42,164 nt of DNA from an uncultured Pedobacter sp. (GTDB lineage: Bacteria; Bacteroidota; Bacteroidia; Sphingobacteriales; Sphingobacteriaceae), in the NCBI RefSeq assembly GCF_946479715.1, contig NZ_CAMLHF010000018.1:1-42164 (forward strand). Direction: 5' to 3'. The position numbers and the translations under genes are program-made. Position 1 is the first letter of the stretch. Each line of letters begins with the position of its first letter. The notes beneath the pieces are model-generated. The model did not search any database. It had not been told where the DNA came from and saw nothing but the letters and a program-made list of their open reading frames with translations. Positions 15,731-42,164 of the stretch are shown piece after piece.

Positions 15731-16378
15731 TCAACTCTCAACCACGCCAACATAAACACTATCCCCCATTACCTTTCCATTGGCCGAGGCAAAGTTCATA
15801 TAACAATGCAACGCATCTCCCTCAAAATCCGGAGGCAAGACAACAGCATACCCAAGTGCATACCTGTCAATTACATTTACAGCAGTTACAGCCTTCATCT
15901 TTGCAGGGTTATACACCAAAAAAGAACCCAAATCCGTATACTGGCAATAGGCCGATTGACCTTGCGGCGACCAACTAAACTTAATACTTCTTGCTGATGA
16001 AGAATGCTCCAAAACTGCTTGTACTCCATATGGAGTTTCAACAGAGCCACGGCTATACACCATTTTCGGATAATTAATAAAATAATGATCATCCTCTTCA
16101 ACAAATGCATGATCATAGTTATAGGCATAAGCCACATTTAAAGGCCTTTTGCCCCTAGCCACATACTTAAAACCCATATTCACTAAAACAGCTATTGGGT
16201 TCAAAAAAGTGGTTAATAGCCTAAACTTATCGTTTATCTCTATTTGCTTTTTTGTTGGGCCATTTGTGCTTTTATGATGATGTCCTGTAATAATATCTTG
16301 TCCATTTACCCTACGACCTATTATTGGCCCGGTTTTTTTCCGAAATCCGCCAAAAATACCTGCTCTTAATATTCCCAT
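15731..16378 (-). CDS. DUF6266-family protein, second copy
   Basis: A 215-residue protein of unknown function. The frame is open to 16471, but the ATG at 16378 (MGILRAGIFGGFRKKTGPII) lines up with the paralogue just upstream (MGIANDGLFGGHTGKIGDLV), so it is chosen as start, leaving a 22-bp gap. The family pattern is visible: an N-terminal GxFGGxxxKxG motif, then VNGQDII, a PTKKQIEINDKF segment, LLTTFLNPIAVLVNMGF, and a C-terminal half rich in beta-strand (IKFSWSPQG, DRYALGYAVVLP, CYMNFASANGKVMGDSVYVGVVE). No signal peptide or membrane segment is seen. The two copies are clearly related but strongly diverged. Confidence 0.75.
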   Translation of the reverse strand: MGILRAGIFGGFRKKTGPIIGRRVNGQDIITGHHHKSTNGPTKKQIEINDKFRLLTTFLNPIAVLVNMGFKYVARGKRPLNVAYAYNYDHAFVEEDDHYFINYPKMVYSRGSVETPYGVQAVLEHSSSARSIKFSWSPQGQSAYCQYTDLGSFLVYNPAKMKAVTAVNVIDRYALGYAVVLPPDFEGDALHCYMNFASANGKVMGDSVYVGVVES

Positions 16379-16400
16379 GTGCTGATAAATTAAGCCTCTA

Positions 16401-17039
16401 TCAGGCGTTAAAACTTCCTGTATAAATACTATCGGCCACATCTTTCCTATCCGCAGCAATAAAAGAAACATAAGTTTCCATGTACTTTCCTCTTAAATCT
16501 TCAGGAATATTCAACTCATCGCTGCCCGATAATCTGCTATTGCCATAAAGCGCGTAAACTATCTTTTTTGACGCGGGGAAATAAGCCAGCATCATTACCT
16601 GATCGGTTGATTCCGGCCATGCCATTTGCGGATTAGTATCCCAGTTAAACTGAAGGGCATCTGTTGTTTGTGTTACCACACAATTTTGGGCTGGTTTTAA
16701 TAGGCCCTTGCTAACCAGCAATTTATCGCAAGCAATTTCCTGATTCGGATAAGTGCCTTTGATTACATTTTTAATGTTGTGCTGAACAGCCAAATTGTGT
16801 GTATTCATACCTGTCTCACCAATCATCGTGCTAAAACCGAGTTCAATAAAAGGCCTCAATGTTTTAATAGTCTCGCTAACTATTTTCATATCCGTTTGTG
16901 CCCTTTGCTGATTTTCTGTAGGAGGTTTCTGGCTTTTACCTATTGAACGTACAACAGTTTTACCATTAAGTTTATAAAAAACAAGGTCACCTATTTTACC
17001 TGTGTGGCCGCCAAAGAGCCCGTCATTTGCTATCCCCAT
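16401..17039 (-). CDS. DUF6266-family protein, first copy
   Basis: A 212-residue protein of unknown function, recognised from the Pedobacter-type DUF6266 N-terminus (GLFGGHTGKIGDLVFYKLNG, then QKPPTENQQRAQTDMK and LRPFIELGFSTM). NIKNVIKGTYPN and LLVSKGLLKPAQN in mid-protein, and the repeating strands at the end (FNWDTNPQMAWPESTDQVMML, METYVSFIAADRKDVADSIYTG), also fit. It has no signal peptide and no catalytic motif I can name. It shares its order and orientation with a diverged second copy. Upstream lie an unusual 202-bp repeat dyad and a 72-residue protein. Such genes often occur as paralogue clusters in Sphingobacteriaceae. Confidence 0.78.
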   Translation of the reverse strand: MGIANDGLFGGHTGKIGDLVFYKLNGKTVVRSIGKSQKPPTENQQRAQTDMKIVSETIKTLRPFIELGFSTMIGETGMNTHNLAVQHNIKNVIKGTYPNQEIACDKLLVSKGLLKPAQNCVVTQTTDALQFNWDTNPQMAWPESTDQVMMLAYFPASKKIVYALYGNSRLSGSDELNIPEDLRGKYMETYVSFIAADRKDVADSIYTGSFNA

Positions 17040-17132
17040 AATACTTTATTATTTGGTTTACCATTTCGCACATCTCGTGGCGCTAGTTAAATATACTAAT
17101 AATCAGTCACATAAACAAAAAAAAGCGATAGA

Positions 17133-17334
17133 AAACACTTGAATAATGCTTAAGAAATATTTGAGAAATGCTTGGGTTAGAAGATGGTTGAAAGATGGTT
17201 AGAAGATCATTGAGAGATGGTTGAAATATGTACCTAGATATTTCAACCATCTCTTAAGCATTGTTTAAACATGTCTTTAACATACTTAAGTTCAAGTGTT
17301 TCTCAAGTATTTCTTAAGGATTATTTGAGTGTTT
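17133..17334. repeat. 202-bp dyad built of sixteen 11-bp units
   Basis: Eight 11-bp units (approximate consensus ARATGSTTGAR) occupy 17133-17176 (four) and 17182-17225 (four), separated by 5 bp. After a 16-bp centre (17226-17241) eight inverted units fill 17242-17285 and 17291-17334, again split four and four by 5 bp. Every boundary is mirrored about 17233.5. Unit 8 and its mirror are identical (AGATGGTTGAA), giving a perfect 16-bp arm pair at 17214-17229 and 17238-17253. The outer units match at 9 or 10 of 11 positions and the inner ones at 5-8. The 11-bp step is close to one DNA helical turn and cannot be a coding repeat. It fills most of the 320-bp gap between the 72-residue gene and the DUF6266 pair. 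Confidence 0.85.
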
Positions 17335-17359
17335 CTGATGGTTTTCTCCTACTCCCCGT

Positions 17360-17578
17360 TTAATCTTTTTCTGAACGCTTCATATCCGATGGATCACCTT
17401 CAAAAAGATTGTAGTTATCGTATAGCAGCGCCAGCAACTCTTCGTAAAAAGCCAGAATCATTAAACGCTGGTTTTCATTTAGCTTACTTAAATCTAGCGA
17501 ATAGGCATGTTTTAAGAATTGATCTATGTATTGCTTACACGTATTTAGTGAATCGGAAATTTGTTTGGCTTGGCTCAT
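17360..17578 (-). CDS. Small acidic helical protein, unknown
   Basis: A 72-residue open frame with ATG start (MSQAKQISDSLNTC). It is predicted to be largely alpha-helical with heptad-like hydrophobic spacing (YIDQFLKHAYSLDLSKLNENQ, LMILAFYEELLALLYDNYNLF) and a charged tail (MKRSEKD). It has no signal peptide, and I do not recognise a family. The composition looks like real protein rather than antisense noise, and it shares the strand of the DUF6266 genes. A 91-residue frame on the opposite strand overlaps it and looks like a shadow. The GC-rich folded element begins 45 bp upstream of its start and could be its leader. Confidence 0.5.
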   Translation of the reverse strand: MSQAKQISDSLNTCKQYIDQFLKHAYSLDLSKLNENQRLMILAFYEELLALLYDNYNLFEGDPSDMKRSEKD

Positions 17579-17619: not shown

Positions 17620-17723
17620 AAAAAAGGGATGCACTATGGCGGGCCCTAAATACCGCTAAACCGGGCTTCTCACGGCCTTGGAGACGGGTTTACAATAGAG
17701 CCCACAACGCCATAGTGCACCCT
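17620..17723 (-). ncRNA. Candidate structured RNA (or TIR-bounded mini-element)
   Basis: A GC-rich island of about 100 bp lies in AT-rich surroundings. Its ends pair in a 16-bp stem with a single bulged A (17625-17641 with 17708-17723; arm TGCACTATGGCG). On the minus strand the stem is followed by six Ts (17625-17620), as in an intrinsic terminator. Inside, TAAACC (17657-17662) can pair with GGTTTA (17687-17692), and GGGCT (17663-17667) with AGCCC (17699-17703). The two pairings interleave, as in an H-type pseudoknot. I recognise no known RNA class. The strand is chosen from the T run and from the gene downstream. A mini-transposon with 16-bp terminal inverted repeats is the alternative. Confidence 0.45.
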
Positions 17724-36337: not shown

Positions 36338-39300
36338 TTATCTTAATAGGGTTATTGTGCCTTTTTTAGTGGTTTTAGTCCCGTCATTAAATTCCGCTTC
36401 CAGGAAATACACATACACACCGTTCGGCTGTATATCACCTTTATACGTTCCATCCCATCCATTTTGAATGTTTAATGATTCGTAAATAAATTGTCCCCAT
36501 TGATTGTATACACGCAACTTCATTTTTGCAATTGTATTTCCGTACACATACAGAATATCATTTTTACCATCATTATTTGGTGTAAATGTATTAGGGACAA
36601 AAACAGTGTTTCCTAAAGGATTATCGCTCTTAGCGGTTAAACTAGTTGCATCACTCAGTTGACAGTCAAGCTGACCTTTAGCCCTAACTCTTATCGTTAC
36701 ACTTTGATCAGGTTTCAAACCAGGTACCCGATAAGTAGTTCCGGTAGCTCCATCTGTAGGTGCCACCCATGTTACTCCATTATCTAATGATACTTCGTAA
36801 GCGGTTGCTCCTGGTATTGGATTCCACTGGAATGTTATTTCTGTTGCTTTGTTCTCTTTAACCGTAACCACTGGTGCATCAAGTTTACCTAGCACAGTTA
36901 CCACAACTGATGTGCGGGTTGTACTTGAACATCCTGCTGCATTGCTACTTTCCACATAATAAGTTGTGGTTGTTGTTAATGCCGGTGTGGTAAATGTAAC
37001 TCCCTGAGCAATTGAAGTTCCTCCGGTTGCTGCAGTATACCAGCTATATGTAAGCGCTGCATCTGGATTGGTTACAGAAAGTGTAGCAGTTGTGCCTGAA
37101 CACAATGGGCCATCAGCTCCAGATATTGCAGTTGGTGCTGTAGGAATTGGTGAAGCATTTACTTTCACTGCTGTACGGCCAGCACTTACACAAGATGCTG
37201 TTGAAGCTTCAACATAATATGTAGTAGTTGTGGTTATTGCAGGAGTAGTAAAGCTTGTACCTGTGCCAACAGCTGTTCCTGCGACTGGAGTGGTATACCA
37301 TTTGTAGGTTACCCCATTAGTTTGAGGGCTTGACACACTTAATACGGCCGGAGCTCCTATACAGGCATCAACCACTGCCGAAACTACTATTGGTGTTAAT
37401 GGTTTTGGCGAAACAGTTACGGTTACTTTAACCCTACCAGTTGCATTTCCACAACCTGAAGCACTTACTGCCAATACGTAGTAATCTGTATTAGTGGTTA
37501 AGGTTGGTGTGGTAAATTGTTCACCAGAAAATAATAATGTTCCTCCTACTGACGCACTGTACCATTGGTACAAGATTCCTGCCTCAGCATTATCTACTTT
37601 TAACACAGTTGATTCGCCACTGCATATGCTTGTTCCTGCACTAGCAACATCTGGTGTTTCTGGCAAAGGATTAACTGTTAACGTAATCACTTTTGCACTG
37701 GCAGCAAGGTTTTCACATCTGTTACTTCCTCTTACCGTTACATAATAATTAGTGGTTGCGGTAAGTACCGGAGTAGTAAACTCAGCACCTGTGAACACAG
37801 CATTAGTTAATGCTGCATCGCTGTACCAGGTAAACACTGGGTTAGTTACTGTAGTACTTGAAGCAGTTAGTGTAGCCGTAGTACCTGCGCAGAATGGTGA
37901 TCCTGCTCCGGCTACTGCAATATCTGCAGCACTTGCAGGTGGGTTAACTATCAATGTTACAACTTTAGCTGTTGCTGCTGTATTTTCACATCTGTTATCT
38001 CCTCTAACCGTTACATAATAACTAGTTGTTGCAGTAAGTAAAGGAGTAGTGAACTCTGCTCCTGTAAACACAGCATTAGTCAATGCTGCGTCACTATACC
38101 AGGTAAATACTGGATTAGTTACTGTAGTACTTGAAGCAGTTAATGTTGCTGTAGTACCTGCACAGAATGCTGCATTGTTTCCAGCTACATTAAGATCTGC
38201 TGCTGATGATGGTGGATTAACCACAACAGTTACTGCTTTAGCAGAGGCTGCACTATTTTCACATTTATTATCTCCTCTAACGGTTACATAGTAAGTTTTG
38301 GTTGCAGTTAATACCGGAGTTTCAAATGATGAACCTGTGAAAACAACGGTAGTTAAGGCAGCGTCACTATACCAGGTAAATACCGGATTAGTTACCGTTG
38401 TGCTCGACGCTACTAATGTAGCTTTAGTACCTGCGCAGAACGTTCCGTTATTACCTGCTACATTTATATCTGCAGCTGTTGCTGGTGGATTAACCGTTAC
38501 CGTAACCACTTTTGCATCGGCAGCAAGCGTTTCACATCTATTGCTTCCACTTACTGTTACATAATAAGTAGTAGTAGCAGTAAGTACCGGCGTTTTGAAA
38601 ACTGGACCTGTAAATGCAACTGTTGTTAAGGCTGCATCACTGTACCAAGTAAATATAGGATTGGTTACCGTGGTAGTGGTTGCTGTTAAAGTTGCTGTAG
38701 CACCTGCGCATAATGGAGCAGAGTTACCTGTTACACTTAGATCAGCAGCTGATGCCGGTGGATTAACGGTTACCGTAACCACTTTTGCACTAGCAGCCAG
38801 ATTTTCACATTTATTGTTTCCTCTTACTGTTACATAGTATTTAGTTGTTACAGTAAGTATTGGTGTAATAAATTTCTCTCCGGTAAATACAGCGTTTGTC
38901 AATGCTGCATCACTGTACCAGGTAAACACTGGATTAGTTACTGTAGTGCTTGAAGCATCTAAAGTAGCTTTTGTTCCTGCACAGAATGGTGAATCGGCAC
39001 CTTTAACAATGATATCTGCAGCAGTTGCCGGTGGATTAACTGTTAGGGTGATAATTTTCGCATTTCCTGTTGCATTTTCACACTTATTAGCACCACGAAC
39101 AGTTACATAATAAGTAGTAGTTGCAGTAAGAACAGGGGTATTAAATACTGATCCTGTGAAGGCAACAGTTGTTAAAGCTGCATCACTGTACCAGGTAAAT
39201 ACTGGATTGGTAACAGTAGTACTGCTAGCCACTAACCTGGCTGAGTTTCCAGAACAGAACGGTGCATCGGCACCAGCTACATTAATATCAGTAGCCAATG

Positions 39301-42164
39301 CTGGTGGGTTAACTGTTACAGTTACTGCTTTAGCGGTAGCTGCTGTATTTTCACATCTGTTAGATCCCTTAACTGTTACATAGTATGTAGTTGTTGCAGT
39401 AAGTACCGGAGTTTCGAATGTTACTCCTGTAAAGACAAGCTTAGTTAAAGCAGCATCACTATACCAATTGAATATTGGAGCAGTTACTGTAGTAGTGGTT
39501 GCGGTTAACTTCGCTTTTGTACCAGCACAGTATGGCGCATCAGCACCTGCTACGTTAATATCAGCAGCTGTTGCCGGTGGATTAACTGTTACAGTTACGG
39601 TTTTAGCTGTAGCTGCTGTGTTCTCACATTTATTGCTTCCTCTTACTGTTACATAGTATGTAGTAGTTGCAGTAAGTACTGGTGTAATGAAAGTTGCACC
39701 TTGGAATACCTGATCAGTTAAGGCAGCATCACTATACCATGTGAATACCGGCGATAGTACTGTTGCACTTGTAGCAGATAGTGTAGCTTTTGCTCCTGCA
39801 CAGAATGGCGCTTGATTACCAGTTACACTGATGTCAGATGCTATTGCAGGTGGATTTACAATTAAGGTAACTATTTCTGCATTTGAAGCCAGGTTCTCAC
39901 ATTTGTTGGATCCACTAACAGTTACATAATATGTAGTTGTTGCTGCAAGTGAAGGGATAACAAATTTAGTTCCTGTAAATACAAGTTTAGTTAATGCAGC
40001 ATCACTGTACCAGTTAAATATCGGATTAGTCACTGTAGTAGTGGTAGCCGTAAGTTCAACTTTAGCGCCTGCACAGAATGGAGCACTTCCTCCTGTTACG
40101 TCAAGATCCGCTGCGGTTGCCGGAGGGTTTACTGTAAGAGTAACCACTTTAGCATCTGCAGGTGTATTCGCACATTTATTAGATCCGGTTACTGACACAT
40201 AATAAGTTGTTGTGGCAGTAAGAAGTGGAGTATCGAATATTGCGCCCTGGAATACAACATCTGTTAATGCTGCATTACTGTACCATGTGAATACCGGATT
40301 AGTTACTGTTGTACTAGTTGCTGTTAACTTAGCAGAAGTTCCTGCACAGAATGGCGCATTTGCTCCGGCAACATTTATATCAGCAGCTACGGCAGAAGGA
40401 TTGATTGTTAATGTAATTTTTGTGCGTGGAGTTGTATTCACACAAGAGTTTGCATTAACTGCCTCTACGTAGAAATCATGAGGACCAACTGCAAGGTTTG
40501 CAGGTGTAATATAAGTATTGGTATTGCTTGCCAACAGATTTCCACCTGTAGCAGCATCGTACCAGTTGAAAGTAACACCTACTACAGGATTCACAGCCAG
40601 TGTTGCCGAAGTATTAGGGCAAGTAGTTGCTGGGTTTCCAGTAGCCGCTACCGGAGCATTCGGTGCTGCAAGAATTGTTACTGTTATTTTTGTTTTAGCA
40701 CTTAAACAATCTATAGCATCATTAACTGCAGCTACATAGAAATCGTAAGTTCCAGCAGCAAGAGTTGGGTCAGTTGCTAGACTTACACCATCTTTTCCAG
40801 TTAAGTAAGTAATGGTTTGTCCGTTGCGCATAAACCATTTGTAAGTAAGACCAGTTACCGGGTTCTTAACAAACAAGTTTGCTGAAGTACCTGTACAAGC
40901 AGTAGCTGTAGCACTCTGTACTGATGGCGCTACCAGGATACGTTGAGCATAGTTAAAGTCGAGCGTGGTTAACACAGCGGCTAAACCAGATCTTAATCTT
41001 AACTCAACCCCATCAAATTGTTTTTGTGGTACGTAAGTAATGATTGCTTCACTATTTCCACTAAGGATTTGTACATCAACAATTGGATTGCTAACAACAA
41101 GCCTATCGTTATTACTTGCACCGTTATTTAAAGTAGTTACCTCAATAGATGATAAAACACCTAATGAAAGCAATTTACCTGGCGAAGTAATACGTAATCT
41201 AAGTGTATCGCCTACACTGCTAAGCCCACCAGTGAAGCCTACTTGTTGATAAACCGAAGCACCTAAGGCACCTACAGGCATAACAAATGAAGATCCACTT
41301 TCAGTATTGTTGTCTACTGCAAATCCAGGGTTGAATACCGCCGATAGTACAGCTACACCATCAACACCATCTTTGATAGCTACTGTTGCTGCCTGACATG
41401 GAACTGCAACCGGATTCGGTTTTGGAAGAATAGTCACATCAACACTTGCAGCGGCAGAGGCAGGACATGCTCCCGCTCCAGTTATCTCTACAGTTACGTA
41501 GAATGTTTTTACAATTGGTGCATTGGTTAAATTATCTAAAGCACCTGTTGTGTATTGTGCACCAGTGTGAACTAATGTTGTTAAGGCTGCATCACTATAC
41601 CATTTAAATACAGCACCGGCAGTACTTGAAGTAGCGACAAGCACAGCAGGAGAACCTGAACTAATGGTTACAGCGGCTGGAGTAATTACCGGTGGATTTA
41701 ATGTACCTACCTTAATGGTTGCTGTTGCTCTTCCTGAAGTACCGCATGAAGTTACTGCCTCTACAGAATATGTAGTTTGGGCCGCTCCAACTGTTGCAGT
41801 AAAGGTCACACCATCTTTTCCGGTTTGGTAAGCACCATTACCGTCATACCATTTATAAGTTACGCCAACAAGCGGGTTACTTACCTCAATGGTAACCTGA
41901 TTTCCAACACAACTGTTAATAGTTGCATTAACCAATACTGGTGTTGTTGGAGCAGGGGTAACAATTACATTAACTGATGTTCTGTAGCTGGTACATCCAG
42001 AAGCAGTAACTGCTTCTACATAGAATTTAGTGTTAGCTGATAAAGCAGGTGTTGTAAAGGTAGCACCGTCTTTTCCAGTTTGATATGCACCGGCCTCATT
42101 GTACCATTTATATGTAATGCCAGGTAGAGCAGTTTGTACTGCTAAAGTAGCTGTTTGGTTTGCG
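36338..42164 (-). CDS. Giant Ig-repeat surface adhesin with T9SS type B (CHU_C) sorting domain, 5' end beyond window
   Basis: The frame is open from the right edge (first complete codon at 42163) to the stop, giving 1941 visible residues; the signal peptide lies outside. Ig-like/PKD-like domains of 80-91 residues run through most of it. They include ten very similar copies of 91 residues, each with Cys19 and Cys77 placed for a disulfide. A different domain of about 155 residues interrupts them (about 40930-41405). Three further Ig-like units, a fibronectin type III domain (about 36630-36895) and the C-terminal gliding-motility-type sorting domain follow (VPNTFTPNNDGKNDILYVYG, VYNQWGQFIYESLN, WDGTYKG, PNGVYVYFLEA). 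It is probably a cell-surface adhesin similar in role to SprB. The PorP/SprF and PorE-like genes follow in the same orientation. Confidence 0.9.
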   Translation of the reverse strand, partial: ANQTATLAVQTALPGITYKWYNEAGAYQTGKDGATFTTPALSANTKFYVEAVTASGCTSYRTSVNVIVTPAPTTPVLVNATINSCVGNQVTIEVSNPLVGVTYKWYDGNGAYQTGKDGVTFTATVGAAQTTYSVEAVTSCGTSGRATATIKVGTLNPPVITPAAVTISSGSPAVLVATSSTAGAVFKWYSDAALTTLVHTGAQYTTGALDNLTNAPIVKTFYVTVEITGAGACPASAAASVDVTILPKPNPVAVPCQAATVAIKDGVDGVAVLSAVFNPGFAVDNNTESGSSFVMPVGALGASVYQQVGFTGGLSSVGDTLRLRITSPGKLLSLGVLSSIEVTTLNNGASNNDRLVVSNPIVDVQILSGNSEAIITYVPQKQFDGVELRLRSGLAAVLTTLDFNYAQRILVAPSVQSATATACTGTSANLFVKNPVTGLTYKWFMRNGQTITYLTGKDGVSLATDPTLAAGTYDFYVAAVNDAIDCLSAKTKITVTILAAPNAPVAATGNPATTCPNTSATLAVNPVVGVTFNWYDAATGGNLLASNTNTYITPANLAVGPHDFYVEAVNANSCVNTTPRTKITLTINPSAVAADINVAGANAPFCAGTSAKLTATSTTVTNPVFTWYSNAALTDVVFQGAIFDTPLLTATTTYYVSVTGSNKCANTPADAKVVTLTVNPPATAADLDVTGGSAPFCAGAKVELTATTTTVTNPIFNWYSDAALTKLVFTGTKFVIPSLAATTTYYVTVSGSNKCENLASNAEIVTLIVNPPAIASDISVTGNQAPFCAGAKATLSATSATVLSPVFTWYSDAALTDQVFQGATFITPVLTATTTYYVTVRGSNKCENTAATAKTVTVTVNPPATAADINVAGADAPYCAGTKAKLTATTTTVTAPIFNWYSDAALTKLVFTGVTFETPVLTATTTYYVTVKGSNRCENTAATAKAVTVTVNPPALATDINVAGADAPFCSGNSARLVASSTTVTNPVFTWYSDAALTTVAFTGSVFNTPVLTATTTYYVTVRGANKCENATGNAKIITLTVNPPATAADIIVKGADSPFCAGTKATLDASSTTVTNPVFTWYSDAALTNAVFTGEKFITPILTVTTKYYVTVRGNNKCENLAASAKVVTVTVNPPASAADLSVTGNSAPLCAGATATLTATTTTVTNPIFTWYSDAALTTVAFTGPVFKTPVLTATTTYYVTVSGSNRCETLAADAKVVTVTVNPPATAADINVAGNNGTFCAGTKATLVASSTTVTNPVFTWYSDAALTTVVFTGSSFETPVLTATKTYYVTVRGDNKCENSAASAKAVTVVVNPPSSAADLNVAGNNAAFCAGTTATLTASSTTVTNPVFTWYSDAALTNAVFTGAEFTTPLLTATTSYYVTVRGDNRCENTAATAKVVTLIVNPPASAADIAVAGAGSPFCAGTTATLTASSTTVTNPVFTWYSDAALTNAVFTGAEFTTPVLTATTNYYVTVRGSNRCENLAASAKVITLTVNPLPETPDVASAGTSICSGESTVLKVDNAEAGILYQWYSASVGGTLLFSGEQFTTPTLTTNTDYYVLAVSASGCGNATGRVKVTVTVSPKPLTPIVVSAVVDACIGAPAVLSVSSPQTNGVTYKWYTTPVAGTAVGTGTSFTTPAITTTTTYYVEASTASCVSAGRTAVKVNASPIPTAPTAISGADGPLCSGTTATLSVTNPDAALTYSWYTAATGGTSIAQGVTFTTPALTTTTTYYVESSNAAGCSSTTRTSVVVTVLGKLDAPVVTVKENKATEITFQWNPIPGATAYEVSLDNGVTWVAPTDGATGTTYRVPGLKPDQSVTIRVRAKGQLDCQLSDATSLTAKSDNPLGNTVFVPNTFTPNNDGKNDILYVYGNTIAKMKLRVYNQWGQFIYESLNIQNGWDGTYKGDIQPNGVYVYFLEAEFNDGTKTTKKGTITLLR
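37673..40402 (-). repeat. Ten tandem 273-bp repeats inside the adhesin gene
   Basis: Ten contiguous units of exactly 273 bp (91 codons) fall at boundaries 40402, 40129, 39856, 39583, 39310, 39037, 38764, 38491, 38218 and 37945, ending at 37673. Each begins at or near Asn-Pro-Pro and contains FCAG, FTWYSDAALT and YYVTV motifs. No unit has gained or lost a codon. Confidence 0.95.

Follow-up and report, generated by a model that had tools for sequence, protein, structure and literature searches.

Operators of the OmpR/PhoB type are built from tandem 11-bp half-sites, and 11 nucleotides (nt) make up about one helical turn of A-form RNA. An array with this period, made of sixteen mirrored 11-bp units, lies on a 42,164-nt stretch of DNA from a soil bacterium, an uncultured Pedobacter sp. 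(contig NZ_CAMLHF010000018.1, positions 1 to 42,164; this whole stretch is called the window), upstream of a gene of the DUF6266 protein family. The literature searched yielded no description of such 11-nt mirrored arrays, and the closest systems share only parts of the layout. In the sections of PMC9304148 at hand, the operators of CarH and CarA, which belong to the MerR family, are tandem 11-bp direct repeats among which degenerate repeats are tolerated, with the CarH consensus nnnnTnnACAn. The window array likewise consists of 11-bp tandem direct repeats, but TnnACA is missing from it (neither strand of its consensus ATCTTTCAACC contains ACA), CarH sites overlap the -35 region, a second mirrored row is not described in those sections, and no MerR or B12 family occurs among the eight proteins around the array. 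BldC, according to PMC5859096, binds 9-bp sites cooperatively and head to tail; a variable number of direct repeats, weak reading of sequence and the use of one DNA face would be common ground, whereas the site measures 9 bp against a period of 11 here and no BldC-like family was found among the eight proteins scanned. The ParR/parC system of plasmid R1 also has 11-bp direct repeats (excerpt of PMC9426499), with ten repeats flanking a promoter according to the title of a reference cited there; it is, however, a plasmid centromere working with ParM, whereas the window array has an inverted second row and no ParM or ParR family among the same eight proteins. Heptamer arrays of TAACTGA, known from Beggiatoaceae, Cyanobacteria and five Bacteroidetes (excerpt of PMC4679880), are similarly intergenic short tandem repeats upstream of genes, but they have a 7-nt unit of a single fixed sequence that, in the main genome studied, mostly lies no more than several nucleotides from the start codon. 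Finally, REP/RAYT elements and other dispersed intergenic hairpins resemble the arrays in being hairpins, in their intergenic position and in their dispersed copies, with one family in a single species; the arrays differ by their 11-nt internal period, their tie to DUF6266 and the lack of a Y1 transposase match in seven genomes of the genus. We use a class defined here, the DUF6266-linked 11-bp array (a DUF6266 gene that is first in its operon, with a lag-11 array at most 500 bp upstream), to which the window array belongs.

The array of the window comprises the following features.

17133..17334, no strand: mirror-symmetric array of sixteen 11-bp units, arranged 4+5+4, a 16-bp centre (17226-17241) and 4+5+4, with its axis at 17233.5
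17175..17229, minus strand: five-unit direct block in the orientation of the DUF6266 gene (units ATATTTCAACC ... ATCTTCTAACC), starting at -190 from the ATG at 17039
17122..17232, plus strand: first arm of a long inverted repeat (repeat search, RNA folding)
17235..17345, plus strand: second arm of the long inverted repeat (repeat search, RNA folding)

The 4+5+4 / 16 / 4+5+4 layout symmetric about 17233.5, which a first-pass annotation had proposed from the letters alone, was recovered at these positions. Counted from the outside to the centre, mirror partners match at 9, 10, 10, 7 (spacer 2/5), 5, 8, 6 and 11 of 11 positions and the centre at 12/16, in agreement with the claim of an identical central pair (11/11) and some weaker flanking pairs (5-8 of 11). 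The arms of the inverted repeat, 111 nt each, are 72% complementary in the repeat search, and the partner arm of the 17175..17229 block lies on its upstream side in the orientation of the DUF6266 gene. The lag-11 autocorrelation of the arms is 0.58 and 0.53, against 0.18-0.39 for lags up to 45 when multiples of 11 are set aside, and TRF reports periods of 11 and 22. RNA of the array is predicted to fold at -98.5 kcal/mol on the plus strand (z -12.8) and at -69.5 kcal/mol on the minus strand (z -7.9). None of 200 shuffles folded as well on either strand, and none of 40 controls with shuffled flanks and the best five-unit block kept reached the inverted-repeat score. A refuting outcome named by the annotation, the lack of any similar array in relatives, was not observed, arrays being present upstream of DUF6266 genes of related genomes (see below). 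The window array is thus real, with an 11-nt period and a mirror symmetry beyond those of shuffled sequence. Its arms are longer than the usual direct blocks because two tiers of different units are joined in them. The idea that symmetry is kept better than base pairing proved only half right: the plus-strand fold of 17110-17357 has 94 pairs with G-U counted, and complementarity at the best mirror register, a value favoured by the choice of that register, is 0.74, dropping to 0.56 and 0.52 after a shift by one unit, so that pairing between the arms looks partner-specific.

The suspected link to DUF6266 extends well past this locus. In seven genomes with DUF6266 genes, we scored the 500 bp upstream of first-in-operon DUF6266 matches, 91 of 103 in number, the other 12 having no 500 bp of upstream sequence. 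The lag-11 score was ≥12 in 39/91, ≥15 in 32/91 and ≥20 in 25/91 of these regions, as compared to 0-2 regions at ≥15 and 0-6 at ≥12 for the other lags (5-10 and 12-21), the 6 belonging to lag 10; lags 22 and 33 were elevated as multiples of 11. None of 27 DUF6266 matches that are not first in their operon had a score ≥12, and the 500 bp downstream of DUF6266 matches reached ≥12 in 2/114 cases and ≥15 in 0/114. By a four-unit score, 48/91 regions exceeded the best of 99 shuffles; with the window and seven locus records added, of which two are repeats, the count was 56/99 (the places counted twice are G005:C9 = L007 and G006:C19 = L009). Not all of these arrays are independent, as some are homologous, for instance the CTTTTGCT arrays of G002, G003 and G004. 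Background frequencies were low: 800 kb drawn from 40 genomes of the genus contained three intergenic lag-11 arrays (≥14), and 20 other Bacteroidia loci, 322 kb in all, contained none, 7-nt arrays being commoner there. On these figures we rejected the view that 11-nt arrays are a general genome feature. A protein search with DUF6266 led to 11 loci (nine Pedobacter, one Chryseobacterium and one Kaistella), and an 11-nt repeat stretch, with units mostly unlike those of the window, precedes the match in eight of the nine Pedobacter loci and in the Chryseobacterium and Kaistella loci; none was found upstream at the Pedobacter locus L006. Eight DUF6266 loci from outside the genus sample divide evenly: weak 11-nt repeats lie close to the start in L139, L140, L141 and L145 (lag-11 scores of 10, 10, 13 and 17), and the other four have no 11-nt repeat (scores 5-6). 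The period, the symmetry and the link to first-in-operon DUF6266 genes are computational observations, and the same spacing with mostly other letters upstream of DUF6266 relatives points to a shared, undescribed mode of control.

What these arrays have in common is a form rather than a word. Extension from a three-unit seed in 56 arrays gave direct blocks of three units in 18 cases, four in 15, five in 22 and six in one, and none longer. Within an array the units combine a conserved core with a variable rest (for example AACAGGGT+3 and TTGAACGG+3), and the unit is private to most arrays, few being shared (CTTTTGCT in G002, G003 and G004; AACAGGG in G002 and G004). Because the unit differs in most arrays, a profile of the window unit, which had been suggested as a search tool, fails to describe the class. 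The 4-5-4 layout did not generalise either: what strong arrays (four-unit score ≥30, n = 31) mostly show is direct blocks with five units at most. In 22/31 the block is matched by an inverted partner arm at a level reached by none of 40 controls with the block kept and the flanks shuffled, and 9/31 have no mirrored partner beyond the control, which makes the direct row the constant part. Complementarity peaks at the mirror register and drops stepwise with shifts by whole units. The strand richer in G-U pairs varies between arrays, and no RNA strand common to all of them was found. Taking one array per homologous group, picked by hand (n = 30), and testing 32 words, we found CAA/TTG in 15/30 consensuses (null 7.2; 2/2000 shuffles) and ACC/GGT in 12/30 (null 5.2; 1/2000 shuffles), an excess that is modest given the number of words tested.

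The genes and the predicted promoter at the window locus are as follows.

16401..17039, minus strand: DUF6266 gene, 212 aa (PF19781, 100.1 bits), with an FN3-like C-terminal part in the structure model
15731..16471, minus strand: second DUF6266 gene, 246 aa (PF19781, 95.3 bits)
17360..17578, minus strand: 72-aa open reading frame (ORF) without a Pfam family, with 14 nt between its stop and the end of the array arm
17088..17095, minus strand: predicted -7 element TATATTTA of the DUF6266 promoter, with one mismatch to TANNTTTG, Bacteroidota type, 79 bp from the block end
17116..17118, minus strand: predicted -33 TTG, 20 bp from the -7 element

As first described, the array sits between the 72-aa ORF and the DUF6266 genes, all three on the minus strand, and its onset is 94 nt upstream of the DUF6266 gene start at 17039. 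TANNTTTG is the -7 consensus of Bacteroidota promoters. Sequence related to the 72-aa ORF stands beside an array in L181 and, shortened, in L001. Just upstream of this ORF lies a compact 89-nt element (17631-17719) with a TGCACTATGGC/GCCATAGTGCA stem, also present in L001, L181 and L185, which has no Rfam family at gathering score and may be a structured leader RNA. A gene of the PD-(D/E)XK transposase family (PF12784; 18148-18987) neighbours the locus, and farther along the window a 273-bp tandem repeat of 9.8 copies (37710-40388) falls within a 1865-aa ORF.

Phased protein sites and a long imperfect RNA hairpin had both been put forward for the array; both remain candidates, and we rank the phased sites higher. 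Our tentative preference, held with less than even confidence, is for a DNA platform, a set of sites in phase with the helix to which a regulator of DUF6266 promoters would bind cooperatively. In favour of DNA sites we count the first-in-operon link, the shortness of the rows, the units made of a core and a variable rest, and the nine arrays without a mirrored partner; CarH provides a precedent for operators of tandem 11-bp repeats. The array would then act in cis on the DUF6266 promoter, as a row of 11-bp sites, about five at most and one for each turn of the helix, that is usually doubled by a mirror-image row. A regulator multimerising head to tail would bind one row, and a second set of it, oriented the opposite way, would bind the mirrored row; the resulting complex, two-fold symmetric and placed upstream of the core promoter, could switch or tune DUF6266 transcription. 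Since most DUF6266 copies have their own site sequence, such a regulator would read little sequence (compare the weak CAA and ACC bias), or there would be several paralogous regulators.

A preferred distance between array and promoter is suggested by part of the data. Three of 92 rows, the window among them, were dropped from the promoter test for having no in-frame ATG in the stretch used; a promoter was scored in 13 of 30 arrays, and the other 17 fell below the promoter score. At eight loci of G001-G004, the block centre lies 86.5, 106.5, 108.5, 109.5, 110.5, 113.5, 114.5 and 137.5 bp from the -7 element; six of these values fall between 106.5 and 114.5 bp. The standard deviation (SD) is 13.0 to the -7 element vs 24.2 to the ATG, with exact permutation values of 23/40320 for the SD and 182/40320 for the median absolute deviation (MAD). 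As this subset was picked after the data had been seen, the promoter distance is a lead only.

Several results weigh against the DNA platform. Over all 13 loci, the distance from block to promoter is no tighter than chance (permutation 1204/10000). A ninth locus of G001-G004 (G002 C1:317062) lies at -56.5 bp, and with it included the MAD stays tight (1841/362880) but the SD does not (114221/362880); four loci of G005 and G006 lie at 160-282 bp. The window itself stands outside the distance test, and its 79 bp from block end to -7 element fits by a separate promoter prediction only. This recheck of the distances slightly lowered our confidence in the platform. Moreover, 43/91 first-in-operon matches have no array by the four-unit score, four of 12 arrays (≥14) in 800 kb of G002 are within 200 bp of a DUF6266 match, and a Pfam scan of the eight proteins around the window array found no regulator family. 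Unit sequences that differ between arrays of one genome are awkward for a single regulator. Array copies without DUF6266 also count against it, as does an apparent hairpin-like covariation of the arms of window-type arrays; covariation and dispersal are what favours a hairpin. Two rival readings are considered next.

The first, which we think unlikely, is a transcribed long RNA hairpin with a plus-strand stem of about 100 bp, acting as a double-stranded RNA-like regulator or insulator, or on the minus strand as a terminator for the 72-aa gene. It would account for the plus-strand z of -12.8 and, in its terminator version, for the 8-T run at 17117-17124 that adjoins the array arm. Across six window-type arrays, 86.9% of mirror cells are paired, against 40-48% when the arms are slid; 16 pairs are changed on both sides, vs 7.9±2.1 in shuffles (0/500) and 3-10 in slid versions; and G-U pairs number 67 vs 25 A-C. 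However, these are six related sequences and the structure was taken from one of them, so that the covariation is support, not proof, and conversion between arms would give the same signal. The strand richer in G-U pairs differs between arrays and nine of the 31 strong ones lack a mirrored partner beyond the control, both of which count against an RNA hairpin. In the window, as at several further loci, array and gene are separated by a predicted promoter, which places the array outside the DUF6266 leader. Rfam gave no match in the window at gathering score, the best permissive match having 40.6 bits of the 211 needed, and identity with an Rfam family was dismissed as the permissive matches resemble generic hairpins.

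Slightly less probable is a dispersed non-coding hairpin of the REP or MITE kind, in which slippage, together with template switching from arm to arm, would have produced period and mirror as side effects, with no promoter function. Window-type arrays occur at the 72-aa/DUF6266 locus (the window and L001) and, where DUF6266 is missing, next to the 72-aa ORF (L181). G157 and G177 have one at a second intergenic locus and G195 a degenerate one, with no DUF6266 in the 7 kb read. With at most six candidates scored per genome, another 11-nt hairpin family has at least six scored copies in G002 and no match in the other 144 genomes, and a DUF6266 profile built here had no match within 4 kb of 16 stand-alone arrays. 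One such array, an 11-nt hairpin at 14148-14244 of L229 with no DUF6266 within 4 kb, stands upstream of an operon that, from the starts of its proteins, we take to be rpsL-rpsG-fusA. The stepwise loss of complementarity with whole-unit shifts would also suit copying by units, as would an alignment of six rows (window, L001, L181, L180, L182 and L002) in which two rows are short by exactly 11 nt; the L002 row, however, has a separate gap of 12 nt elsewhere. At one orthologous intergenic place compared in ten genomes, G002 has its copy, L220 and L224 have weak, unrelated 11-nt arrays (scores 14 and 12), and the other genomes have no array, L222 scoring 11 in an A-rich stretch; this single region was too divergent between genomes for an empty-site comparison to reveal an insertion edge. 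Against such an origin stand the strong concentration of arrays upstream of first-in-operon DUF6266 matches, the scarcity of blocks longer than five units, and the conserved core with its variable rest. No target-site duplication was seen by eye in six G002 hairpin copies, and mobilisation by a RAYT was rejected, as no Y1 transposase (PF01797) was matched in the seven genomes. A coding repeat, finally, was rejected, as by the annotation, since no ORF of ≥50 aa covers 17133-17328.

DUF6266 itself is a multi-copy family, with 130 matches in eight genomes: 7-35, fragments included, in each of six Pedobacter genomes, one in G008 and none in G007. Across the class, 9/119 sampled genomes have a match at E ≤ 0.001. 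The AlphaFold model has a mean pLDDT of 91.4, and FN3 domains are its top hits in Foldseek (E 4.7e-4; TM 0.64 by target). No PHROGs or PADLOC match was obtained at E 0.1, and the literature searched contained no mention of the family that we could find. Other elements also accompany its genes. G002 and G005 have two listed HTH_17 matches each, and all four are no farther than about 400 bp from a DUF6266 match (G002:C1:158456, G002:C1:644324, G005:C1:615265 and G005:C1:348006). HTH_17 regulators were rejected as general partners, because none of the adjoining DUF6266 genes has an 11-nt array (each with a lag-11 score of 6); only one of these genes scores at lag 10 (G005:C1:347066, 12), and none of the 10 HTH_17 matches of G003 is beside its listed DUF6266 matches. 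In place of 11-bp arrays, some DUF6266 promoters of G002, G005 and G006 have direct sites with a spacing of 10 bp, several of which look GACA-like by eye (for example G005:C1:1022153 and G006:C26:513569). Intergenic DNA of the genus also contains 7-nt tandem arrays (L230, L245, L254, L260 and L262), some with inverted arms and GATACTT-like by eye.

Taken more broadly, the arrays might form a class of cis elements with a fixed register (11), a row length of up to about five and mostly mirror symmetry, the letters being largely private to each locus. These would be operators in which structure comes first, attached to a gene family in rapid expansion, and either regulators that co-evolve with them or the copying of 11-nt units within and between arms would keep them self-consistent, a proposal that we regard as improbable and offer as speculation. 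That spacing and symmetry are kept while the sequence changes raises the question of how a regulator follows, or whether a mutational process builds the arrays. The recurrent promoter architecture provides a first handle on the control of DUF6266 genes, a family without an assigned function.
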